Assembly (NCBI GenBank): GCA_947627165.1
Contig: CANQUZ010000002.1
Coordinates: 1 to 46,663 of the forward strand
Source of the DNA: an uncultured Roseburia sp.
GTDB lineage: Bacteria > Bacillota > Clostridia > Lachnospirales > Lachnospiraceae
Length of the DNA stretch: 46,663 nucleotides
Reading direction: 5' to 3'
The notes below the pieces were generated by a model. That model saw nothing but the letters and a program-made list of their open reading frames with translations. It was not told the origin of the DNA and did not search any database. This document shows positions 2,933 to 46,663 of the stretch, piece after piece (position 1 is the stretch's first letter; each line of letters begins with the position of its first letter). The position numbers and the translations under genes were made by a program.

Positions 2933-4599
2933 GGAAGAAACCAATCATCACGGCGGACAATATACTAAGTCTGGCAAGAGAAAAGAAAATAGAAGGAAAA
3001 ATACTGCGGGCGAAAGTGGTAAAAAACCGGCTGTATTATCGGATACGCGTGCCTTATGAAAAGAACTGGGATATCCGATATAAATATTTAAAGATGGCAT
3101 ATGCCACAAAGAGAGAGGCGGACGCGGCGCAATATCTCTTTCCCTTTGCAAAAGAGCGCATCGGGAAACATAGCTGCGTGCTGGAGAGCTGCATCTGTCT
3201 GGATGATATCGCATTTAAGCCCTTGAACTGGAACTTTTCGGCAGTGATTGGGCAGGGGGAGGAAGAGGCGGAGCTTCTTTTGGCAAACAGGAGCTATCTG
3301 AACTATGCAAAGTATTGTTCTTTGTTTTTTTCAAACGAGTACCGGTTTCCAGACGGAACCTTCGTCTACCCTTATGTGGACTGGAATCGAAACATTGCCC
3401 TGCAGTATCGGAAACGGGGGGAATATGACGATTACCGCTTTCAGTTGAAAGAGCGTATGGCAGCGCTTCGTTTGGCGTTCACTTATCCCTTTCTGAAAAG
3501 AAAGCGCATCTGTCTGGTATTTGAAAAATATTCCCAGATGGCGCAGGATAACGCGTACTATTTTTTTAAATACTGTATGGAACATCACGAAGAACAGCGC
3601 ATGAAATGCAAGATTTATTATGTGATTACCAAAGATTCGCCGGATCGGGAAAAATTAGAACCTTACAAAAACAACGTGATTGATTTTATGAGCATCCGCC
3701 ATATCACCTACGCATTGGCGGCGAAATTATTGATTAGCACCGATGCGAAAGCGCATATTTATCCAGTCAGGCGCAAGGGAGGCGTGCTGCACGTATTTAT
3801 TCGGCGAAGAAAACTCGTATTTCTTCAGCATGGAGTTACCGCTATGAAGAAAGTGGATTTTTTCTATGGAAAAGGGAGATCCGGCGAATGCGATATGTTC
3901 TGCGTTACGTCGGATTTTGAACAAAAGGTCGTCACAGATTACTTTGGTTACAGAAAAGAGCAAGTGCCGATTACAGGTTTTGCGCGGTGGGATGTGTTGG
4001 AAGACAAATCAGAAGGGAACAGAGAAATCCTGATTATGCCTACCTGGAGAAATTGGCTTGAGAATCTTGATCCTGAAACATTTCGGGAGAGTTCCTATTA
4101 TAAAGCCTATCAGCAGTTATTGCAGAACCATGCGTTTTATGAAATGCTTGAAACCTATGATTTAAAGAGTGTGTTTTATCTGCATCCCAAGTTTAAGGAC
4201 TATGTGAGGGAATTTGCCGTGGATAGCCCGAGAATACGCCTGATAGCTTTTGGGGAAGAACCTTTGAATGAAATCATGATGCGGTGCCGTATGCTGGTGA
4301 CGGATTATTCCAGCGTGGCTTGGGATATGTTCTACCAGAGGAAGCCGGTGATATTTTACCAATTTGATTTGGACGATTATCTGGAAGCGCATGGCAGTTA
4401 TCTGGATTTGAAAAAAGATTTATTCGGGCCAACAGCGGAGACGGCGGAGCAGCTGCTTGAGAGGCTGAAAAACTGCGCTAACAGTGAATTTGCGCAGACA
4501 GAGGCGGAGGAAACGCTGCATCAGTATTATTTTAAGTATGCAGACCATGAAAACTGCAGGAGAATTTGCCAGGCAATAGAGGAAAAGTTTCTTGCATAA
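2929..4599 (+). CDS. CDP-glycerol glycerophosphotransferase family protein
   Basis: FLQHGVTAMKK, MPTWRNWL, MLVTDYSSVAWDMFYQRKPVIFYQFD motifs; overlaps previous stop by 4 nt. Confidence 0.88.
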   Translation: MRKKPIITADNILSLAREKKIEGKILRAKVVKNRLYYRIRVPYEKNWDIRYKYLKMAYATKREADAAQYLFPFAKERIGKHSCVLESCICLDDIAFKPLNWNFSAVIGQGEEEAELLLANRSYLNYAKYCSLFFSNEYRFPDGTFVYPYVDWNRNIALQYRKRGEYDDYRFQLKERMAALRLAFTYPFLKRKRICLVFEKYSQMAQDNAYYFFKYCMEHHEEQRMKCKIYYVITKDSPDREKLEPYKNNVIDFMSIRHITYALAAKLLISTDAKAHIYPVRRKGGVLHVFIRRRKLVFLQHGVTAMKKVDFFYGKGRSGECDMFCVTSDFEQKVVTDYFGYRKEQVPITGFARWDVLEDKSEGNREILIMPTWRNWLENLDPETFRESSYYKAYQQLLQNHAFYEMLETYDLKSVFYLHPKFKDYVREFAVDSPRIRLIAFGEEPLNEIMMRCRMLVTDYSSVAWDMFYQRKPVIFYQFDLDDYLEAHGSYLDLKKDLFGPTAETAEQLLERLKNCANSEFAQTEAEETLHQYYFKYADHENCRRICQAIEEKFLA

Positions 4600-4622
4600 A
4601 TTACGATAGGCAGAGGTGTCAG

Positions 4623-6539
4623 ATGAGTAAAATTATCATAACAATAGATGGGAATTGTGTTCGGATAGAAAATAAGCGTCCGCGTTTTGCAGAATATAAC
4701 ATAGAGCAGATTCTTTTGGATGATTTGGAAGAGAATAAAATCTATAAATCCACAGTGCCGCTGTCCAAGGATGCGGACAGGGACAGGATCCTGTATTTTG
4801 AAAAGTGCGGAGAAACCGTTGTGGGAGAGGAGCGGAAGGACCTTTATTTCCTTGCCTATGGGGACGGGGGTTCTCTGAAATATGCAAAAGGTTTTCCGGA
4901 AGATCTGCTGAAAAAGCTAGTTGCATTCAAAAACAAGATTTTAAAACTGCATCTGGGGAAAGAACGCCTGGTGTTGTGGATTACAGGGTACATTGTTAAC
5001 AAATACAAAAATATAGAGATTGAATCCCAGCATATTACGGTGTCGGAGAAGATAGAGAAGCGTGTGGATTTTAAAATGACTGCCGCAGTCCTGGGAAAAA
5101 TAAAGAGAATGTTCCCGTTTTATATCAGGCGGGTTTCCCTGCCAATCGCTTCCCTGTTTGAGAATGCGGAAACCATTGATAATGTTGTGTGGCTGGAACT
5201 GAAAATGATGGGGCGAAACGTCCCTTATGGGCTCTCAAAACGCAAGCTGGGCGTGCGGAGCTCCAGAAATTATTTTGCCCCCATTGCAAGGAAAATAAGA
5301 GATGGGTTCATGTTGTTTGTCCGAAGAAATGGGAAGGGGAATATCGTTCTGGTGACAAGACGCCTGGAGGAGTATGAAAAGACGTTCCAGTATCGTTTTT
5401 GGGAGAGTGTGCCGGTTTCCTGGATCTTATATCAGAGTGGGAAGTTTGTGCGAAAAGTATCCAAAAAGCCGGTGAACATTTATTTTGAAAAAGAGAGCAT
5501 GAAAGCGGAGGAGGGGGCGTTTGAAGTTTTCGACCTGGCCTGCGGCGAACATTCTTCTAAGAACTATTTTATTATCGGAGAAACGTCAGACGATTATGAG
5601 CGTTTGAAAGGACATAAGAACGTTGTAAAAAAATATTCACCGAAGTATTATTGGCTGTTATACCGGGCGGACAGTGCAATTACTACGGAAGCCCCGGCTC
5701 ATGCAAACATTCTGCGAAGCGGCAACAAATATATCCGTTTGCGGAATATCCAGATGCAGTTTATCTTTCTGCAGCATGGAGTAACTTATATGAAATGCCA
5801 TGGCAATACATCGGCGTTTATCCGGGGAAAAGAAGCCGAACCGCAGTATATCTTCGTGGGGAGCAAAAAAGAGAGGGATATTGTATCCGATATGCTTCGT
5901 TTGCCGGAAGAGAGGATTTTTATTACGGGGCTGCCGATATTCAGCACAATAAAGTATCGTCATATCACCCAGGAATCCGAGGACTATGCAGCAATCATGC
6001 TGACATTTAAACCGTATGAGGAGCGTTTGGATGATTTTGAAAATTCGGCGTACTACCGCACGATTTTGGATTTGTATGCGATTTTGAAAAAATATCTTCC
6101 AGAGGATAAAATTCTTTTGGCGGCGCATCCCAGAATCTATTATCTTTTAGAAACTACGTCTCTCAAAGAGCGGATATGGACGGGACCGGTCAGCAGTATG
6201 CTGGAAAAAGCGAAGCTTCTTATCACGGATTATTCATCTGTGGCGTACAACAGTTTTTACCAGGGAGCGGGCGTCCTCTTTTACCAGGAGGATCTGGCGG
6301 AATATGAAGCTATCTGCGGAACCCTGATCCCGAATGAGGATGAATATATTGGAATGAGGGCGTTTAACCTGGAGATGTTTGAAGAAAAAATAAAACAAGT
6401 GATACAGGATGGAAAGATACAGCTCCAGGAGGCGAGGACGAAAGAACAGGAAAAAATTTATAAGGGTATCAATTCTTTCTGCGACGGTAAAAATGTGGAA
6501 CGTATTTATCAGACGCTGAAAGATAAAAATATGATATAA
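4623..6539 (+). CDS. CDP-glycerol glycerophosphotransferase family protein (divergent third copy)
   Basis: FLQHGVTYMK and LLITDYSSVAYNSFYQGAGVLFYQED motifs; ATG at 4623 with upstream gagg. Confidence 0.8.
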   Translation: MSKIIITIDGNCVRIENKRPRFAEYNIEQILLDDLEENKIYKSTVPLSKDADRDRILYFEKCGETVVGEERKDLYFLAYGDGGSLKYAKGFPEDLLKKLVAFKNKILKLHLGKERLVLWITGYIVNKYKNIEIESQHITVSEKIEKRVDFKMTAAVLGKIKRMFPFYIRRVSLPIASLFENAETIDNVVWLELKMMGRNVPYGLSKRKLGVRSSRNYFAPIARKIRDGFMLFVRRNGKGNIVLVTRRLEEYEKTFQYRFWESVPVSWILYQSGKFVRKVSKKPVNIYFEKESMKAEEGAFEVFDLACGEHSSKNYFIIGETSDDYERLKGHKNVVKKYSPKYYWLLYRADSAITTEAPAHANILRSGNKYIRLRNIQMQFIFLQHGVTYMKCHGNTSAFIRGKEAEPQYIFVGSKKERDIVSDMLRLPEERIFITGLPIFSTIKYRHITQESEDYAAIMLTFKPYEERLDDFENSAYYRTILDLYAILKKYLPEDKILLAAHPRIYYLLETTSLKERIWTGPVSSMLEKAKLLITDYSSVAYNSFYQGAGVLFYQEDLAEYEAICGTLIPNEDEYIGMRAFNLEMFEEKIKQVIQDGKIQLQEARTKEQEKIYKGINSFCDGKNVERIYQTLKDKNMI

Positions 6540-36196: not shown

Positions 36197-36586
36197 TCAG
36201 AGACGAAAGACAAAATATTTTTGGAGAAGAAAATTTACAGTCATTGCACAAGCAGTTGCAATGACAAAGGATGGTATCTTATTTTGAGTCAGGCTGAATA
36301 CAATGTAGTTGATGAGTGTATTTGTTCCGATGTTGGCGGCAAAACTCAAGTAATACCGAAACAGATATCGGATGTTTGTCTTTTCGGTATTTCGGAAGGT
36401 CCAGCTTTTATTAAGGAAGTACGAAAATACAGAGGAAATAAGCATGGATATACATTTAGCCCAAAGTATATGCAGCTTTGTGGAAAAAATCATATAAAAA
36501 ATAAAATCAATCGTTGTTGAACATACGCCAATTATACAGAATCTTACAGTAGAAGCGTTTGTACAGTTTTTAAAAAAATTTTTCAT
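36197..36586 (-). CDS. GtrA family membrane protein
   Basis: Four TM helices; VRFCIIGVCSTTIDFIFYM, FSYFLNKSWTFRN, NFLLQKYFVFR. Confidence 0.88.
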   Translation of the reverse strand: MKNFFKNCTNASTVRFCIIGVCSTTIDFIFYMIFSTKLHILWAKCISMLISSVFSYFLNKSWTFRNTEKTNIRYLFRYYLSFAANIGTNTLINYIVFSLTQNKIPSFVIATACAMTVNFLLQKYFVFRL

Positions 36587-36605: not shown

Positions 36606-38711
36606 TTATGATTGTTTTAAATCTATCAGAATATTACTCCCATCACTATATACATCAAACCACATAGTAGTTTGCGCTAAGGGCAGATTTTTTTGACGTA
36701 AATCATAGTTCTCATCAAAGCTTTGGGAAGCCCAGATGACAGAGTAGTTTTCTGGTAAACCATAGTATTGGTAAAGGCTGTATTCGGACCACACCCATCC
36801 GCCGCTAAGTGTACGTGGGACAAGTTTGTTCAAAAGAATATGTGAGGATGTCTTATTTTTAATGGAAGGAGCTTCTCCAATATCACCAATGATTTGTAAT
36901 TGGTACTGCTGGTCTGGCTGATATCTTTCATTTAAATAGCTGAATACAGCTTGCATTCTCATATTTGTATATTCTTGCTGCAAATAAAGACAGTTCCCAT
37001 ATGCAAATGAAAATGTAAAAAATCCCCATGCTAAAGCTAAACAGGATAGCCTGCTCATGCAAAAGCCTTTTGCTGTAATAAAGATGCATAGAAGACTCAC
37101 AGCGATACAAAACCCGTACATGGAACGAGGAAGATATACGCATTCCTGAAGAACAGGATAAATTCCAAAGCAAAGACTTCCCATAAGCATAATAGTTGTA
37201 ATTGCCATTACAAAAGATGCCTTAATATTTCTTTTGGAATTTAATGAATAGACTATAATGAACAGCACAATAATTATAAAAATAATGATAAGCCATGATT
37301 TAGAGAAATCTTTATAAATTGTGCTGTAAAAGTTTAGTAAATTCCGAAAGAATCCTGGAATAAGATCCCGGACAGGCAGCATATTGCTAGAAACATGGGT
37401 TTGAACGGGCCGCATAATAAAAATTTTGAAAAATGCAAGACCTATTCCATATCCTAAAACGGAGGTGTATACGAGTTTCCATGTTTTTTTTAAATTTTCA
37501 CCGCTGTTCCATTCCATTGATGCCAATAAAACAATAACGATAGGAAACACTGCGGTAGCTGACTGGTAAGTAATGCACATAAGTGCGGTGCAGCATGCGG
37601 TGAGAATAAGGTAAATCAAATTTCTTTTCTTATATAAAAGTAATGGGATGATACATAATAAAATTGAAACACCATGTATGATGCTTTCAATTTTATAACT
37701 GATGTTTTCCATAAAATATGGTGAAACAGCAAAAGGAAGAGCTGCCACTATCATCCAGTTAGAAGTTAATTTTTCCGGAGCAATCGCCCATATGATAATT
37801 GTGACCGCAACTGCCATCAAAAACATGGTCATAATCTGTGGAAGGGGGGAGGTATCACTTACGATATTGCTTGCGCTCATTAACTTGCAGACTGCTTTTG
37901 AGAAAAATCTGTTATAACCATCCCAATCGTTTACTCCTCCACTATAATTTCGTCCGAGGTCGTCTATATAGAGAAAATTTGCCCGGATAATTGCAGTAAT
38001 GGATAATATATAAAAAAAGCTGCACTTTAAAACAAAAAATAGTCCTTTTTTCAGAGATTCATTATTTTTGGAATGTTCTATAAAATAAAAATAATGGCGA
38101 AGAATAGCCTCTGATTTTTCGTGGAACAGGCTTGTTTTATGCAGGGTGAGAATTAGGTAAATAAGCGATAGAAGCACGGTAAGACACAGAGACTCACAGA
38201 AAGTGCTGAATAAGATGCGTGCCTTGTCTCCGTTGACGATAACATCGCCGATTACCATAGACACATTTGGTTTTTCTGCCAAATCCAGACGCAAAAAAAC
38301 TTTGGGATCCAGGCAAAGTCCCGGAAAAAAGACAGTATTCTTTCCGTTGGATAATGTAAGATGTGTCCTATCCCAGTTATTTCCAACCGCAATAATTTCA
38401 GCTGAGATATCGTCCGAATTTATTTCATGAATGTCAATCTCTACTGTTTTTAGATAGATTTTTTTATCAAAAGATAATGTAATAAACGGATCTGCAGAAG
38501 TTGATGTGATTGCTTCGCCGTTTTTTGAGAAATCTTTTAAATTTTTATCTGAAAGGATGTTTTCTACGGAGAAGGAAGTCTGTTGGTACATAGAAAAATT
38601 CAATAGTAAAAACCCCCCTGTGCATATCAGGAAGATGAGGGCTATTGTCAGTATGATTTTTTTGATGTTCAACTTATGATTCATGGCGTGATATTTCCTT
38701 TTCAAGAACAA
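36606..38711 (-). CDS. GtrII-like membrane glycosyltransferase
   Basis: About 12 TM; ANFLYIDDLGRNYSGGVNDWDGYNRFFS loop typical of glucosyltransferase GtrII family. Confidence 0.75.
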   Translation of the reverse strand: MFLKRKYHAMNHKLNIKKIILTIALIFLICTGGFLLLNFSMYQQTSFSVENILSDKNLKDFSKNGEAITSTSADPFITLSFDKKIYLKTVEIDIHEINSDDISAEIIAVGNNWDRTHLTLSNGKNTVFFPGLCLDPKVFLRLDLAEKPNVSMVIGDVIVNGDKARILFSTFCESLCLTVLLSLIYLILTLHKTSLFHEKSEAILRHYFYFIEHSKNNESLKKGLFFVLKCSFFYILSITAIIRANFLYIDDLGRNYSGGVNDWDGYNRFFSKAVCKLMSASNIVSDTSPLPQIMTMFLMAVAVTIIIWAIAPEKLTSNWMIVAALPFAVSPYFMENISYKIESIIHGVSILLCIIPLLLYKKRNLIYLILTACCTALMCITYQSATAVFPIVIVLLASMEWNSGENLKKTWKLVYTSVLGYGIGLAFFKIFIMRPVQTHVSSNMLPVRDLIPGFFRNLLNFYSTIYKDFSKSWLIIIFIIIVLFIIVYSLNSKRNIKASFVMAITTIMLMGSLCFGIYPVLQECVYLPRSMYGFCIAVSLLCIFITAKGFCMSRLSCLALAWGFFTFSFAYGNCLYLQQEYTNMRMQAVFSYLNERYQPDQQYQLQIIGDIGEAPSIKNKTSSHILLNKLVPRTLSGGWVWSEYSLYQYYGLPENYSVIWASQSFDENYDLRQKNLPLAQTTMWFDVYSDGSNILIDLKQS

Positions 38712-38723
38712 TTTTTCTGCAGC

Positions 38724-39452
38724 TTATTGATTTCTTATAAATTCCTCTAGTTCTTCCGGTGTTCCAAGGACATGAACTTTTTGTGCTTCCACCATACTGA
38801 TGGTTATTTTCATTCCTTTTTGAATCATAAAATTATATAGCGGAGCGATATATTTTTCTTTCAGACCGGAAGCTTTGTTTTGAAGATAAAATTCTTTATA
38901 AATATTTTCGTACAATTCACCTGAGGCAAAATAATATGCTCCCAGAGTACAATTATCTGAGATACGCTCTTTTTCCTTTACCTCTATGACATTTCCGTTT
39001 TCATCTAGCCTTGCAAAACTCCAGTGAGTTCCTTCGGCATGGAAACAGGGTATATGGCCATCGCCGCGTAAATCCTGATATAGCATGGAATAGGGTTCAA
39101 CATAGGTATCTATATTATAGATAAGGACGGGCAGAGATTTGTCGCAGAGTTCTAAAGCCATCCATGCTGTGGTAGCCTGGCCGTCTGTTAATTTATCAAG
39201 TTCCAGTAATTCTATATGTTCAATTCCATATTTTTTGCAGTTGTCTTTTATAAAGGATTCGGCACAATCCTCTTTTTTTACCGCAAACACATATTTTTCT
39301 GCATGGTCATTGTAATCAAGGAGACTTTCTAATGACCATTCAAAAAGAGTTTTTCCTTTTGCCTCAATCTGATATTTCGGAACTTTATATCCTGCTTTTT
39401 GAAAGCGTGAACCGAGACCTCCCATTGTGATAATAATGTTAAGGTTTTTCAT
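38724..39452 (-). CDS. Sugar-nucleotidyltransferase-like protein (NTP_transferase fold)
   Basis: NIIITMGGLGSRFQKAGYKVPKYQIEAKGKTLFEWSLESL, YNIDTYVEP. Confidence 0.82.
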   Translation of the reverse strand: MKNLNIIITMGGLGSRFQKAGYKVPKYQIEAKGKTLFEWSLESLLDYNDHAEKYVFAVKKEDCAESFIKDNCKKYGIEHIELLELDKLTDGQATTAWMALELCDKSLPVLIYNIDTYVEPYSMLYQDLRGDGHIPCFHAEGTHWSFARLDENGNVIEVKEKERISDNCTLGAYYFASGELYENIYKEFYLQNKASGLKEKYIAPLYNFMIQKGMKITISMVEAQKVHVLGTPEELEEFIRNQ

Positions 39453-39850
39453 GATTTTCCTCCTATTCTGCTCTCTTCACAAAGAGAGTTTAATTCTTCT
39501 ATTGATTTTGTAAGAAATTCATCCGGTCGGACAGTGCGATCATCTACATAAAAACCATTGTGGCCCGGCCAGGGCTTTCCGAAAAGAATCTCATCATATG
39601 GAATATTCCATTTTTTCAGCCAATCAGATAGGATAGGCGCAGTATTTTTATTAATCAGACCCATATTCCCGTGGTAAGAGTTCATATTTCTTGAGGTAAA
39701 TAAAATAATTCTGGCTCCATTATCATGATAGTAACGAATTTTTTCTACAATTTCTTTGTAGGGAACGAGGTCTTCATAGTTTTCGTTTTTTCCTTTGATA
39801 GGACAGATAGTTCCATCAATATCAAATATAAAATTGTATCCGCTATACAT
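39449..39850 (-). CDS. HAD-family hydrolase
   Basis: FIFDIDGTICPIKG, IILFTSRN, FGKPWPGHNGFYVDDRTV. Confidence 0.83.
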   Translation of the reverse strand: MYSGYNFIFDIDGTICPIKGKNENYEDLVPYKEIVEKIRYYHDNGARIILFTSRNMNSYHGNMGLINKNTAPILSDWLKKWNIPYDEILFGKPWPGHNGFYVDDRTVRPDEFLTKSIEELNSLCEESRIGGKS

Positions 39851-41297
39851 TTTTCTCTATTTCCTCCAATATTTCTATTGCATTTAATATAAAGCCGCAT
39901 ACTTTTTGAGGATAATCAATATGCAGAGGCAGCATGGACAAAAAGAGGGAAACTTCATAGATGCGTACTGTCCAGTAATCAAAACCGTGTTCCTCCAGTT
40001 TCTGGCGGAAGATTTTTTTATATGGTTCTGCATTAAAGGGGATTTTAAGCATACACAAAAGTTTGTCATTAATCTGAATTTCAAACATGGCGTTATTGAA
40101 AAAATCATATCGTCCACAGACAGAATGACTCAACTTTGCAAGGTCATAATAGGGATTGGTCCATAGCTCTTCTTCTTTGAGGGCCCCTTTTGGGTCTATG
40201 AGTTTTAAAGTCTTTGTCGCCCGATTATACATTGTATTTGCAAAACAAGGATCGCCGTGACCTATCACTTCTATCTCCTCATATTTAGCTGTACATTCAA
40301 TTTTTTCTTTTAAACTTAAATACCAGTCAAAAAGTTCCTCAAGGGATTGGACACTGCCATAGCATTCCAGTATTTTTTTGATTTTAGGGTATTCTTGTGT
40401 CTTTTTTAATTCTTCAATCCTATCCCTGACTTTATCTTCATAAAGATTTTTTGAACAGGAAGCATACTTATCCGGAGTTATTTTTCGTGATGCCCTGCAT
40501 GAAAAAAACGCAAAATAAAGATCCATCAGCTGTGAAAATTCCTCTTGATCGAAGGAGTTGTGTATCCACTTAATCGCAACGTCTGTCATATGGAGACGTT
40601 CCATTGCATAACTGGCAAATTCCCCGTCGTCACGGTAATCAAAGGGCATAACAAACCAATGTTTCATATAATCAGGCAGCAGATGATAAAACGTATATTC
40701 ACGCAAAATTTTTTCTTTGTTTTTGGAACTTTTTCGCAAAACGTAATCTGAACCTTTAATGGAATTAAAATATCTGGCGTCAAAGCCGCCTGTCACACAT
40801 TGAATAAATGCACCAATTTCTCCAATATAGCCGATACCATGAATTGTCATGATTGGAAATTTCCTGTTTTCCACAGTCTGTTTCAGGCTGCGTAATTTTA
40901 AATATTCCGAAAGGAAATCACGGTAATTTGCAGCATTTGGAAACATAAGCGCAACAATATTTTTTGTATCTGATACAATCTGAAGATTTTCTTCAATATA
41001 GGGAAGTTTTTTATAGGCAAAAGCAGCCTCTGTTTCATTTAATATAATATGATCTGCACAGCAGTGCAGGACATGGATTGGTTCTCTGATGGATGTTAAT
41101 TCGTCAATCAAATGATCAATGTCGTAAAAAGAATTAATAGAGACGATTTCATCGTCTGGGAAAAAATGTATTTTTTCCATATATGTTTCTTTTAATGTAC
41201 GGCGGCGTACAACAACATCCCCATATCCTCTTTGGCCGATAACTTCTTTGATCAGTTCGTTGGTGGGAATCGTATTGTCATATACAATCAGATTCAT
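39843..41297 (-). CDS. APH/choline-kinase-fold small-molecule kinase candidate
   Basis: VIGHGDPCFANTMYNRATKTLKLIDPKGA (HGDxxxxN...DPKG motif). Confidence 0.72.
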   Translation of the reverse strand: MNLIVYDNTIPTNELIKEVIGQRGYGDVVVRRRTLKETYMEKIHFFPDDEIVSINSFYDIDHLIDELTSIREPIHVLHCCADHIILNETEAAFAYKKLPYIEENLQIVSDTKNIVALMFPNAANYRDFLSEYLKLRSLKQTVENRKFPIMTIHGIGYIGEIGAFIQCVTGGFDARYFNSIKGSDYVLRKSSKNKEKILREYTFYHLLPDYMKHWFVMPFDYRDDGEFASYAMERLHMTDVAIKWIHNSFDQEEFSQLMDLYFAFFSCRASRKITPDKYASCSKNLYEDKVRDRIEELKKTQEYPKIKKILECYGSVQSLEELFDWYLSLKEKIECTAKYEEIEVIGHGDPCFANTMYNRATKTLKLIDPKGALKEEELWTNPYYDLAKLSHSVCGRYDFFNNAMFEIQINDKLLCMLKIPFNAEPYKKIFRQKLEEHGFDYWTVRIYEVSLFLSMLPLHIDYPQKVCGFILNAIEILEEIEKNV

Positions 41298-42118
41298 TTT
41301 CCTGCTCTCCTTTTATTCAACAAAAAAATATAGGTAATCATATAAATACATAAACTAAATATTACATAAAGAGCATTGAAATGATTTCCAGTGCCATGAA
41401 ACAGACTTTCAATATAGTTTCCAATGCTGTCCAAGTCAAAATCATTTATGACTAACAGGCCTCCAATTTCACAGCACCAGGCAAGTAATGAAAGGATAAG
41501 TGTAATTAGGAATTTTCCTTTAATAATTTTGTTTATCTGCATGACTCCTCTATTTATATAGGAGAGCCACATTAAAAGATTAAGCGTCAGGGAAGAATTG
41601 CGGTTAAAAACCAACATATGATTCCAAACTTTATAAAGCTGTGCAAAAATCAACCATAAAAAAATAAGCAATATTAAAAAAAACAGGAAAATTACCCAGA
41701 TATGATTCAAAGTAATATTCCAAATAAAATAGAGTCCTGCAGTCAGTGAAACGAGTGCAAGAGTATCTATAAAACGGTCATAGAGCACGATAATATATCC
41801 ATCAAAATAATTTGCTGATAATTTGCCTAGCCGATATCCTCTATATAATTCTCCCAATTTAAATGGAATAACATTATTTACCGCCGAGGTAATGCAGTAT
41901 TCTTTTAATAATCGTTTGCCGCGTATGCTGTTTTGCTCAAAGCAAATCAAATATAGCCGTATAGCCTTTAGGGTGTTCACAACCAAGGCAATGGTAAATG
42001 TAAAAAAATACATTTGGATAGAATACATACTCAGATAAGATTCCATGAATACTTCAAATATATATTTACCAAATAAAATGGCAGTTAAGACAATGACTAA
42101 AATATCAATGATCACCAT
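41294..42118 (-). CDS. Lysylphosphatidylglycerol synthase TM/flippase-like membrane protein
   Basis: NNVIPFKLGELYRGYRLGK...ILYDRFIDTLALVS, multi-TM. Confidence 0.65.
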   Translation of the reverse strand: MVIIDILVIVLTAILFGKYIFEVFMESYLSMYSIQMYFFTFTIALVVNTLKAIRLYLICFEQNSIRGKRLLKEYCITSAVNNVIPFKLGELYRGYRLGKLSANYFDGYIIVLYDRFIDTLALVSLTAGLYFIWNITLNHIWVIFLFFLILLIFLWLIFAQLYKVWNHMLVFNRNSSLTLNLLMWLSYINRGVMQINKIIKGKFLITLILSLLAWCCEIGGLLVINDFDLDSIGNYIESLFHGTGNHFNALYVIFSLCIYMITYIFLLNKRRAGK

Positions 42119-42123
42119 GGTTT

Positions 42124-42849
42124 TTATTTACCTTTATGCTTTTTTATGGACCTCTTCATTTCTTTGCTATCCTGTAAGGTTCTTTTTATCAGTTTGATCC
42201 TTGCTTTCATCCCAGTATTCCAGGTCGATGTTCCTTCTTGGCGTCTTTTTTGAATTGCAGGAAAACGAATTATTTGATAGTTATTAATTTTTGCCAGATA
42301 ATAAAAATATAGGTCTAAAGAAAATCCATAGGGTGGATTTTCTGCTTTTGATAGCAGATTTTTATGCATCATGGTTGGCTGGGCATTTATGTCCCATAGT
42401 CCGGTGTGTAGATACAATGTTTCAAGACAACTCATTCCTAAGGTAAAAAAACGGTCTGAAAGAGGCCGTTTTTTTCTTAAACCCTTGATGAATAATTTGG
42501 TTCCATACTGATTTTTCTGTAAATGTTGGGCGATTGTCACAAAATAGCCCGGATTAAATTGCAAATCCGCATGTATCCAACCTATATACTCACCTTTGCA
42601 AGCTTTCATCCCTTGCAGTAAGCCGTAGCCATAACCCTTATTAACTGCCACAACTACTTTTTGAATAAAATCAAATTTTTGAATGCATTTATCTATTTCA
42701 GATTCCGTATGATCACAGGAACCATTATTGACCAATATTAGTTCAAAACCGTCTGGAGAAAGCTTCGCATTCACTTTGACAAAATGCGATACCAGATTTT
42801 GGATATTTTTTTCTTCGTTATAGCAAGGCACAACAACTGAATATCTCAT
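42124..42849 (-). CDS. GT2 family glycosyltransferase (DPM1-like)
   Basis: YSVVVPCYNEEKNIQNLVSHF, LVNNGSCDHTE, GYGLLQGMKACKGEYIGWIHADLQF; ATG at 42849 preceded by aaaggga on minus strand. Confidence 0.88.
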   Translation of the reverse strand: MRYSVVVPCYNEEKNIQNLVSHFVKVNAKLSPDGFELILVNNGSCDHTESEIDKCIQKFDFIQKVVVAVNKGYGYGLLQGMKACKGEYIGWIHADLQFNPGYFVTIAQHLQKNQYGTKLFIKGLRKKRPLSDRFFTLGMSCLETLYLHTGLWDINAQPTMMHKNLLSKAENPPYGFSLDLYFYYLAKINNYQIIRFPAIQKRRQEGTSTWNTGMKARIKLIKRTLQDSKEMKRSIKKHKGK

Positions 42850-42943
42850 ACAAAAAATCCCTTTCTGCTGCAAAATTTTGAAATTGCAAAAGCCTTTTTT
42901 GGAAAATGTAAATGATTATTAGCAATTACCAAATGCATTGTAA

Positions 42944-42974
42944 AATAGATAACAATTTGGTAGAAAATGTTATC
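42944..42974 (+). repeat. Left inverted repeat (IRL) of putative invertible segment, 31 bp
   Basis: AATAGATAACAATTTGGTAGAAAATGTTATC; perfect reverse complement of 43691-43721. Confidence 0.97.
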
Positions 42975-43009
42975 AATAATGATATATTGAATTATGGAGG
43001 ATAAATAGA

Positions 43010-43585
43010 ATGGTAACTACGCCAATAAGAGAAAAGAATGATATTGAACTGTTAAAAACACATTTTCTGGAGGCAAACGAGTACAGAAACTACGCATTAT
43101 TTGTGGTTGGAATCAATACGGCGTTACGAATTAGTGATATTTTAGGGCTAAAGTGGAAATCTGTATATGACTTTGAAAGAAAAAAATACCTGAAACATAT
43201 TGATACTATAGAACAAAAAACAAAGAAAAGAACTTGTATTGCAATCAATACAAATTGTATGGAAGCCTTTTCATTATTAATGAAAGAAAGTAATCCCGCC
43301 TCCCCTGATGAATATATATTTTTTTCCAGAAAAAATCGTTATAAACCTTTAAGCCGTAACCGGGCATATCATATCATCAAGAATGCCGCTGCAGAGAATA
43401 AACTTGATGGAAATATAAGCTGCCATTCTTTGCGAAAGACATTTGGATACCATGCTTGGAAATGCGGTACGCCTCCAACGCTGATTATGAATATATATAA
43501 TCATTCTGGACTTGAAATAACCAAACGATATCTATCCATCGATCAGGATGACAAAGATGAGGTATTCAATGCTGTGAATTTATAG
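43010..43585 (+). CDS. Short tyrosine recombinase/integrase (inversion enzyme candidate)
   Basis: Catalytic motifs ALRISDILGLKW, SCHSLRKTFGYH, YNHSGLEITKRYLSID (R...HxxR...H...Y); 191 aa, little or no N-terminal core-binding domain. Confidence 0.92.
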   Translation: MVTTPIREKNDIELLKTHFLEANEYRNYALFVVGINTALRISDILGLKWKSVYDFERKKYLKHIDTIEQKTKKRTCIAINTNCMEAFSLLMKESNPASPDEYIFFSRKNRYKPLSRNRAYHIIKNAAAENKLDGNISCHSLRKTFGYHAWKCGTPPTLIMNIYNHSGLEITKRYLSIDQDDKDEVFNAVNL

Positions 43586-43650
43586 AAAGATCTCTATTTG
43601 AGTGGGATATTCATGCAGAGTTAGATAACAATGATAAAATTACAAGATTC

Positions 43651-43679
43651 TTGCATTATTTCTGTGACTGTGATAATCT
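43651..43679 (+). promoter_or_regulatory. Predicted outward promoter inside invertible segment, TTGCAT-17-TAATCT with TGa extended -10
   Basis: Boxes with exact 17-bp spacing, 11 bp upstream of IRR and pointing out of the segment. Confidence 0.55.
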
Positions 43680-43690
43680 GTTAAAGATAA

Positions 43691-43721
43691 GATAACATTT
43701 TCTACCAAATTGTTATCTATT
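43691..43721 (-). repeat. Right inverted repeat (IRR) of putative invertible segment, 31 bp
   Basis: GATAACATTTTCTACCAAATTGTTATCTATT; perfect reverse complement of IRL. Confidence 0.97.
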
Positions 43722-43751: not shown

Positions 43752-44978
43752 TTGAAAAATCAGAGATACTCTAAATGTACAATAGCCAAAATGTTGAAAG
43801 GAAAGTATGATGATACGAATGGAAAGTATATCATATATATTTTGCATATGAAAGTTGACAAGATTATCATTGGAGGCGGCTTGTATGGTTTATATGCGGC
43901 AGCTCTCTGCGGAAAAAATGGCCAAAAAGTAATTGTACTGGAGTATGACAGTGAATCATTTATGCGTGCCACCTATATTAATCAGGCACGGGTTCACATG
44001 GGGTACCATTATCCAAGATCATTTTCAACAGCAATAAAATCCGCTCATTATTTTGAACGTTTTAATAAAGATTATGCCGATTGCATTCTGACAGAGTTTG
44101 ACCAGGTATATGCAACATCGGCGGACTTTTCGTGGACAAATGCGGAGCAGTTTAAAAAATTCTGTAAGGACGCGGATATCCGGTGTGATGAGATTTCTCC
44201 AGAGAAATATTTCCAGAAAGGTAAATGTGATGGGGCTTTCCTGACCAGAGAATACACATATGATGCAAAATTGCTTCGGGAGAGGCTGTTGGCAGAAATA
44301 AAGCAATATCCGGGGGTAGAACTGGTATATGATGCGAGAATAAAAAATATGCAGAAAGATGCTGCAGAGTATGCGGTGACCATGGAAGACGGCAGAGAAT
44401 ACAGAAGTTCTTTTGTGTTGAATGCAACCTACGCGTCAGTGAACCAGATTAGCGCGAAACTGGGGTATGAACCCTTTAAAATTAAATATGAGCTTTGCGA
44501 GATTATCCTATGCAAAGCAAGTGATGAGTTGAAAAATGTGGGATTGACAGTTATGGACGGTCCTTTCTTTTCTATCATGCCCTTTGGGAAAACCGGATTT
44601 CATTCTTTGACATCAGTGACTTTTACGCCGCATATGACAAGCTATGAGGATGTTCCGGTATTTTCATGTCAGAAATTGTGCGAACCTGGATATTGCAATC
44701 CGGAACAGCTTGGAAACTGTAATGAATGTAAGGCAAGGCCGGAAACGGCATGGGATTATATGTCAAGTCTTGCCAGAAAATATATGAGAGAAGAATTGCA
44801 GTTTTTTTATGAAAAATCATTGTTTTCCATGAAGCCGATATTAAAGGCATCTGAGATAGATGATTCCAGGCCTACGGTTATTAAGGAATTTTCTAAGAAG
44901 CCTACTTTTATCAGCGTTTTGTCTGGAAAAATTAATACAGTTTATGATTTGGACGAGGTGTTATTAGATGAACAATAA
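43752..44978 (+). CDS. FAD-dependent oxidoreductase (start uncertain; FAD domain begins at ATG 43848)
   Basis: DKIIIGGGLYGLYAAALCGKNGQKVIVLEYD dinucleotide-binding fold; ARVHMGYHYPRS. Confidence 0.8.
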   Translation: MKNQRYSKCTIAKMLKGKYDDTNGKYIIYILHMKVDKIIIGGGLYGLYAAALCGKNGQKVIVLEYDSESFMRATYINQARVHMGYHYPRSFSTAIKSAHYFERFNKDYADCILTEFDQVYATSADFSWTNAEQFKKFCKDADIRCDEISPEKYFQKGKCDGAFLTREYTYDAKLLRERLLAEIKQYPGVELVYDARIKNMQKDAAEYAVTMEDGREYRSSFVLNATYASVNQISAKLGYEPFKIKYELCEIILCKASDELKNVGLTVMDGPFFSIMPFGKTGFHSLTSVTFTPHMTSYEDVPVFSCQKLCEPGYCNPEQLGNCNECKARPETAWDYMSSLARKYMREELQFFYEKSLFSMKPILKASEIDDSRPTVIKEFSKKPTFISVLSGKINTVYDLDEVLLDEQ

Positions 44979-45903
44979 AGAAAGCAATTTCGTTTCGGCT
45001 GTCGTATACCTCCATAAAGGAGAGACGAACGCATATGGTTTTCTTGATATGATGAATTTTGTCCTGAAAGAAAACTTTGAGAAGTACGAAATCATATGTG
45101 TTGATGATGAAGTAGAAGAAAGTGTTATAGAAGATGTAAGAAGATTTAAAAGCGAAAATGAAAATACCATTGTAAGCATTATCCGAATGGGGTTCCAACA
45201 TGGACTAGAGGCGGCGATGAATGCGGGGATTGATTTATCCATTGGAGATTTTGTGTTTGAATTTGACTCCTGCTTTGTGGATTATGAAAAAGAATTGATT
45301 ATGTCTGTTTATTATAAAGCTCTGGAAGGGTTTGATATAGTAGCTGCGACTCCGCCCAGAAGACAAAGCAAACTATCATCGCGGTTTTTTTATAATGTCT
45401 ATAATTACTTTTCGGAAAGTGACAAGAAACTGGCGACTGAAAGATTCCAGGTCATCTCCAGAAGGGCGATTAACCGGGTGTCTTCCTACAGTAAAACAAT
45501 CCCATATAGAAAGGCAGTTTATGCGTCTAGCGGTTTGAAGGTCTATTACATGGATTATAAACCCCTAGAGACATTAGGCACAGGGGTGAAATTTGATGAT
45601 GAGGAAAAAGAGAATACCGCAATAGATGCTTTGGTTCTCTTTACCAATTTGGCATATAGGGTGTCCATGTTGATTTCAATCGTTATGGCATTATTTATGA
45701 TTGCTGCCGGTGCTTATACGGTAGCAGCCTATTTTGGAACGAATAGACCAGTGGAAGGCTGGGCGCCGATTATGGGGCTTGTTGCAGCAGGATTTTTTGC
45801 GACTTTTGTCATATTGACGATTGTGATAAAGTATCTGGATGTGCTATTAAGACTGGTGTTTAAAAAGCAGAAGTATCTGATTTCTTCTATTGAGAAATTA
45901 TAG
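44968..45903 (+). CDS. GT2 family glycosyltransferase with two C-terminal TM helices (GtrB-like)
   Basis: SAVVYLHKGETNAYGFLDMMN, GLEAAMNAGIDLSIGDFVFEFDS, paired C-terminal TM segments. Confidence 0.82.
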   Translation: MNNKESNFVSAVVYLHKGETNAYGFLDMMNFVLKENFEKYEIICVDDEVEESVIEDVRRFKSENENTIVSIIRMGFQHGLEAAMNAGIDLSIGDFVFEFDSCFVDYEKELIMSVYYKALEGFDIVAATPPRRQSKLSSRFFYNVYNYFSESDKKLATERFQVISRRAINRVSSYSKTIPYRKAVYASSGLKVYYMDYKPLETLGTGVKFDDEEKENTAIDALVLFTNLAYRVSMLISIVMALFMIAAGAYTVAAYFGTNRPVEGWAPIMGLVAAGFFATFVILTIVIKYLDVLLRLVFKKQKYLISSIEKL

Positions 45904-45920: not shown

Positions 45921-46663
45921 ATGAATTTTATATCTGGTTTGTTAATCAGTATTCTTGTCATAGTGCTTTTTTACGGATATGTGGCGGTATGTTTGAAATT
46001 AAGCGGCGTTGGAGAAATGCTGAAAGAAGTCAGCAGAACGGAATGGTGCCTGTTGCTGCTTTTTTTTGTAGTATCCACCGTGTTTGCGGCTTATGAAATT
46101 GGCAGAGATCGATATATTTATTACTGGGACAGCACGATACACTGGAGACCTGCCGCTGAAATGACGAAAATATTGTTCTCAGATCCACTGGGAACCTTAA
46201 AAAGGGTATGGCATACAATTGGAGTTTCAGATTATAACTGGGTGATGCCGATGCTGTATGTCTTACCGGCAAAGGTGTTTGGAAATTCCTTTGGGACAAT
46301 GCTTGTCACGGTGCATATATTTTATATGTGCCCGGCCTTTTTTGTGCTTAGCGTCTGTGCCAATAAGTTTTTAAAGATGGCTGGCTATGAAAAGACAAGA
46401 ATTTTTATTTATGCTGTGCTGCCATTTTGTATGCCGTTGGTGGAATACGTTTTCCTACAGGGTTTTTTTGATCCGCCGGTATTGATGCTCTCTGCGCTTT
46501 TGCTGGTACTTGCCGGTGAATTTTCGTACAGCCGGATGGATTGGAGACGGTCTACGTTAATGGCGGTGGGTATATTGATGATTGTCATATTTCGGAGACA
46601 CTGGGCCTATTGGGTAGTCGGTTACATTTTTTTTCTGGCAGTTGGGATGCTGTTCCAGTTAAA
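45921..46663 (+). CDS. Multi-TM membrane protein, GT-C-like (truncated by window end; absent from ORF track)
   Basis: RBS aaggagaag before ATG 45921; open to window end; MNFISGLLISILVIVLFYGYVAVCLK...YYWDSTIHWRPAAEMTK. Confidence 0.75.
   Translation, partial: MNFISGLLISILVIVLFYGYVAVCLKLSGVGEMLKEVSRTEWCLLLLFFVVSTVFAAYEIGRDRYIYYWDSTIHWRPAAEMTKILFSDPLGTLKRVWHTIGVSDYNWVMPMLYVLPAKVFGNSFGTMLVTVHIFYMCPAFFVLSVCANKFLKMAGYEKTRIFIYAVLPFCMPLVEYVFLQGFFDPPVLMLSALLLVLAGEFSYSRMDWRRSTLMAVGILMIVIFRRHWAYWVVGYIFFLAVGMLFQL

Follow-up and report, generated by a model that had tools for sequence, protein, structure and literature searches.

Does a short DNA segment lying between two divergently transcribed operons decide, by its orientation, which of them is expressed? 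The segment occurs near the right end of the window, by which we mean the whole 46,663-nucleotide stretch of DNA from an uncultured Roseburia sp. that was analysed (assembly GCA_947627165.1, contig CANQUZ010000002.1). We consider it probable (roughly 0.78) that positions 42944-43721 form a self-contained invertible promoter cassette that chooses one of two divergent surface-glycan operons. In the proposed mechanism, the recombinase encoded at 43010-43585 would act on near-palindromic 31-bp repeats and invert the 716 bp between them. As assembled, the single promoter at 43651-43679 would drive the right operon (FAD oxidoreductase, glycosyltransferase), and after inversion it would read through the left repeat into a gtr-like glycan operon on the left.

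The probable invertible segment and its flanking operons

The cassette contains the following features.
42944-42974, plus strand: IRL, the left-hand 31-bp inverted repeat
42961-42988, plus strand: candidate recombinase promoter, TAGAAA-16-TATATT with TG, a consensus match only
43010-43585, plus strand: 191-aa tyrosine recombinase that comprises the catalytic domain alone (Phage_integrase, PF00589, E 6e-26)
43651-43679, plus strand: outward-facing promoter, TTGCAT-17-TGaTAATCT, from direct reading and a matrix test with relatives
43691-43721, minus strand: IRR, the right repeat copy, equal to the reverse complement of IRL

IRL and IRR form a perfect inverted pair (31 bp, 100% complementary), and the repeat is present in these two copies, with no others, in the genome assembly (309 contigs, 82% complete). 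IRL is itself near-palindromic (GATAACA-n13-TGTTATC, 20/27 positions) and is the likely crossover site for the recombinase. Inversion of the segment in silico regenerated both repeats exactly. The repeats, the segment and the promoter, which are the structural premises of the preliminary description, were all borne out by direct reading of the sequence. The outer repeat arm, TAGATAACAAT, has a third exact copy at 43622-43632 on the plus strand, 18 nt 5' of the -35 element, which makes three copies in the window against 0.05 expected; this copy is possibly an extra half-site for recombinase binding. In one related cassette (L041), ATAGATAACAATTTG stands upstream of the cassette's own promoter, despite different repeats.

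Residues R40, K70, H139, R142, H165 and Y174, which we take to be the tyrosine-recombinase active site, are invariant across 79 homologues and are all present in the window's recombinase. Its active site is intact, and the enzyme presumably acts on the 31-bp repeats. The candidate promoter of its gene would be rebuilt after inversion because the -35 element sits within IRL. Several assignments to known recombinases were tried and rejected: scores were 42.4 and 40.7 bits against cut-offs of 221 and 222 for the FimB/FimE DNA invertases (PRK09870/PRK09871) and 45-68 bits against cut-offs of 220-335 for the Xer recombinases (XerC/XerD/XerA), and a Hin-type system was set aside since the segment encodes a tyrosine, not a serine, recombinase. 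Relatives with solved structures were not found at E 1e-5, a plasmid search gave no match, and the recombinases in phage records were all of <60% identity.

The operons on the two sides of the cassette comprise the following genes.
43848-44978, plus strand: right operon gene 1, FAD-dependent oxidoreductase (PF01266; ORF listed from TTG 43752)
44968-45903, plus strand: right operon gene 2, family 2 glycosyltransferase (PF00535)
45921-46661, plus strand: right operon gene 3, membrane protein that runs off the window (no Pfam match)
42124-42873, minus strand: left operon gene 1, family 2 glycosyltransferase, its ATG likely at 42849
41294-42118, minus strand: LPG_synthase_TM-like membrane protein (PF03706)
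39843-41297, minus strand: 484-aa protein (no Pfam match)
39449-39850, minus strand: HAD phosphatase like capsule EcbF/BcbF (TIGR01689, E 6.5e-40, below cut-off)
38724-39452, minus strand: sugar nucleotidyltransferase-like protein (weak match)
36606-38711, minus strand: GtrII-type glucosyltransferase (PF14264, E 1e-41)
36197-36586, minus strand: GtrA-type membrane protein (PF04138, E 9e-22)

In its gene content the left operon is reminiscent of gtr glucosylation operons. On the right, the preliminary description had the promoter reading rightwards into 43752, the TTG from which the ORF is listed; the direction holds, and the gene more likely starts at ATG 43848 (protein start MKVDKIIIGGG, an FAD-binding N-terminus). 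Seven further genomes of the genus also have the pair of FAD oxidoreductase and glycosyltransferase, with no adjoining cassette in the stretches retrieved, and the pair therefore appears to be an independent module. A strong terminator-like hairpin with A7/T7 flanks occurs at 42445-42475, within the coding sequence of the left glycosyltransferase; its plus-strand fold outperformed those of 199 of 200 shuffled sequences.

The inner promoter and its counterparts in related cassettes

Direct reading placed TTGCAT at 43651-43656, a 17-nt spacer after it, TG at 43671-43672 and TAATCT at 43674-43679. IRR begins at 43691, and the 11 nt between (43680-43690) agree with the distance given earlier. Transcription is predicted to start near 43686. 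Against the textbook sigma-70 consensus the site matches 3/6 positions in each hexamer (6/12 in total), and for that reason it is unlisted in a simple consensus scan. The scan returned 19 sites, with 13.3 ± 3.7 expected from shuffles, and in DNA this AT-rich the consensus by itself therefore proves little. A generic scan favoured an overlapping TGt-GATAAT at 43669-43677 over the TAATCT register; we chose TTGCAT-17-TGaTAATCT because eight related cassettes show TTGnAn-17-TGnTAnnnT at this place. Outward and inward strands tie in the generic sigma-A scan of the window, and a minus-strand site at 43684-43655 (10/12) overlaps the inner promoter and is not kept in relatives.

Of 63 genomes of the genus, 27 (the window's included) encode homologues of the recombinase, as do 31 of 397 genomes sampled from the family and named Lachnospiraceae contigs; after duplicate removal the set comprised 80 cassettes. 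Clear inverted repeats flank 52 of the 80; they are usually 20-35 bp long and show the same near-palindromic structure within each repeat. In the tree, the window and 12 others form a group separate from a 65-row group, with support (91/82) that falls short of the strict threshold. L033, the nearest homologue at 69% identity, comes from a sequence that stops where the recombinase ends. Eight cassettes of the window's group carry TTGnAn-17-TGnTAnnnT 3' of the recombinase stop (e.g., L036 and L041 have TTGAAA-17-TGcTATTCT, and L118 and L040 have TTGAAT-17-TGcTATTCT; one of the eight starts TGGACA), and in 8/8 the outward strand is a better sigma-A match than the inward strand.

A promoter matrix was built from these eight cassettes with the window left out. 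The window's site had the top score in its 105-nt region, was equalled by 10 of 2000 dinucleotide shuffles of that region and ranked third among 93,270 positions on both strands of the window, a signal that is in part generic promoter likeness, as the eight sites were chosen as sigma-A-like matches with their final register set by eye. Such likeness is allowed for because the shuffles were scored with the same matrix. FliA is present in the window's organism; a sigma-28 reading of the promoter was nevertheless rejected, there being no TAAA-n-CCGATA at the right place in the 3' region. From its sequence, the inner promoter of the window reads as a housekeeping-type (sigma-A) promoter that faces out through IRR.

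The relatives also lend independent support to the preliminary interpretation: they share the cassette, the promoter's position and direction and, in most close relatives, divergent glycan operons on both sides. Both neighbours point away from the cassette in 8 of the 11 window-group cassettes for which both are known (25% expected, P ~0.001), and the neighbours are mostly glycan genes. In L036, paralogous GT8 genes stand on each side of the cassette, which together with the divergent neighbour pairs favours an either/or selector. In L040, the intact cassette adjoins a second, partial and inverted one (3078-5177) with a 58-aa recombinase remnant, and >400 bp of flank is duplicated in this pair.

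Orientation, natural inversion and alternative readings

The computed inversion moves the promoter to the minus strand at 43014-42986, where it faces the left operon, and the earlier expectation that the opposite orientation would serve that operon is supported. The leader would measure ~130 nt to ATG 42849 when inverted and ~160 nt to ATG 43848 as assembled. Judged from the sequence, our best prediction for the assembled orientation is that the right operon is ON. We infer that the promoter at 43651-43679 is active and that both operons depend mainly on it.

Members of the family truly flip, because one locus was recovered in two orientations. Over 8.5 kb, L035 and L036 share 99.9% identity, and their sole difference is an inverted segment between the repeats: both flanks are exchanged relative to a 0.85-kb segment, with breakpoints at the repeats. 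The window's own copy probably flips as well. The two sequences were deposited under different genera, a discrepancy that probably reflects mis-binning or recent transfer. An 857-bp contig (L068) corresponds exactly to a single cassette, with ends of 37 bp, beginning and ending at the repeats; it may be an assembler leftover of the kind produced when a sample contains both orientations.

Beyond the repeats, each operon has one candidate for a fixed promoter of its own.
42915-42944, minus strand: left-operon candidate, TTTACA-18-AATAAT (10/12; not above chance)
43783-43811, plus strand: right-operon candidate, TAGCCA-17-TATGAT (9/12; not above chance)

The left candidate named in the preliminary description exists, although TTTACA-18-AATAAT is a better reading of it than TTTACA-17-TAATAA, and it scarcely rises above chance. 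The accompanying caution, that the left operon might be boosted and not strictly switched, is reasonable and holds just as well for the right operon. Weak fixed promoters are thus possible on each side. The inner promoter might then matter to one operon, as an ON/OFF switch or a booster, with the other using a fixed outside promoter. We hold this to be possible but doubtful: the two weak matches and the many cassettes of the csrA group (described below) that seem to serve one side only speak for it, but outside matches of this quality are scarcely commoner than in shuffles, and in close relatives divergent glycan genes flank both sides.

A relic that no longer flips, its promoter fixed before the right operon, would fit the single assembled orientation and a repeat with no other copies in the genome; it is improbable, however, as decay would lead to diverged repeats, and here they are 100% identical and the recombinase keeps all of its catalytic residues. 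That the promoter is a chance string, with both operons relying on read-through from the recombinase gene or on outside promoters, accords with its textbook score and its absence from the consensus scan but is unlikely in the face of the matrix test and the conserved position.

An orientation-dependent selector of two operons would differ in its construction from the closest known switches. In the Hin/fljBA system of Salmonella, the invertase gene and an outward promoter lie within the invertible segment and expression depends on orientation. There, as in the window, invertase and promoter travel together; however, Hin is a serine recombinase that switches one operon ON or OFF, whereas the window's enzyme is a tyrosine recombinase and its cassette is predicted to serve two. 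FimB and FimE of the Escherichia coli fim switch are tyrosine recombinases of ~200 aa, consisting of the catalytic domain, that flip a promoter. The window's recombinase is similarly short, but its gene is inside the segment, whereas fimB and fimE lie outside the switch.

Among gut bacteria, invertible promoters ('invertons') are known, for example, from the capsule promoters of Bacteroides (PMC11892184, PMC8748976). They share with the window inverted repeats, a tyrosine recombinase, a promoter in the flipped DNA and surface-glycan targets; the window differs in having the recombinase gene inside the flipped segment, in serving two divergent operons and in a promoter of Bacillota sigma-A type in place of the Bacteroides motif. 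In the passages of PMC11892184 consulted, invertases are located near invertons, and an architecture of the window's type is not mentioned. In Clostridioides difficile, one recombinase, RecV, flips the flagellar switch although it is encoded elsewhere in the genome (PMC5386303, PMC9286219). This too is phase variation in Bacillota through site-specific inversion, but cassettes of the window's family each encode their own recombinase. The kind of device, an invertible promoter, is known; its self-contained tyrosine-recombinase form is unusual and is well supported by the comparison. It would represent a compact phase switch for gut commensals beyond Bacteroides, in which one promoter and one enzyme serve two alternative surface-glycan operons.

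A sigma-28 and csrA version in relatives

At the promoter position, TAAAGTATTT-n-CCGATAtA was found in 46 of the 67 cassettes outside the window's group and in 0 of the 13 within it. This sequence fits the sigma-28 (flagellar) consensus, which is TAAA-N15-CCGATAT in general and TAAA-N16-17-MCGATAa in Butyrivibrio (PMC3720852). In four cassettes (L022, L023, L025 and L030) the sigma-28 promoter is at the opposite, recombinase-upstream end and still faces outward. The promoter of L078 is likewise outward at the upstream end of the recombinase.

The gene csrA (PF02599) adjoins 53/67 cassettes outside the window's group and 0/13 within it; csrA-type cassettes occur among L045-L059, L081-L087 and L092-L129 (e.g., L122, L102 and L113). 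Nearly every genome of the genus has one typical copy of CsrA (~90 bits); a second class, divergent and scoring mostly 50-65 bits, occurs in many of them and lies mostly beside cassettes. Where a cassette has both a sigma-28 promoter and csrA, the promoter is aimed away from csrA in 42 of 44 cases, which suggests a rare csrA-ON state. Of the 63 genomes of the genus, 60 have a FliA match above cut-off, the window's among them, and the rare state would depend on the motility sigma factor.

We lean, by a little over even odds, toward a self-flipping family that spans the Lachnospiraceae and includes both sigma-A glycan selectors and a sigma-28 csrA version, whose flip would silence flagellin or other targets post-transcriptionally in a motile cell. 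The family would link DNA inversion with the flagellar sigma factor and a CsrA paralogue, and so connect stochastic switching with motility control. Descriptions of a sigma-28/csrA cassette, or of this three-way link, were not found in the literature searched, whose coverage excluded most subscription papers. Within the csrA type, L102 and L113 differ in that the recombinase is reversed relative to a similar csrA flank.
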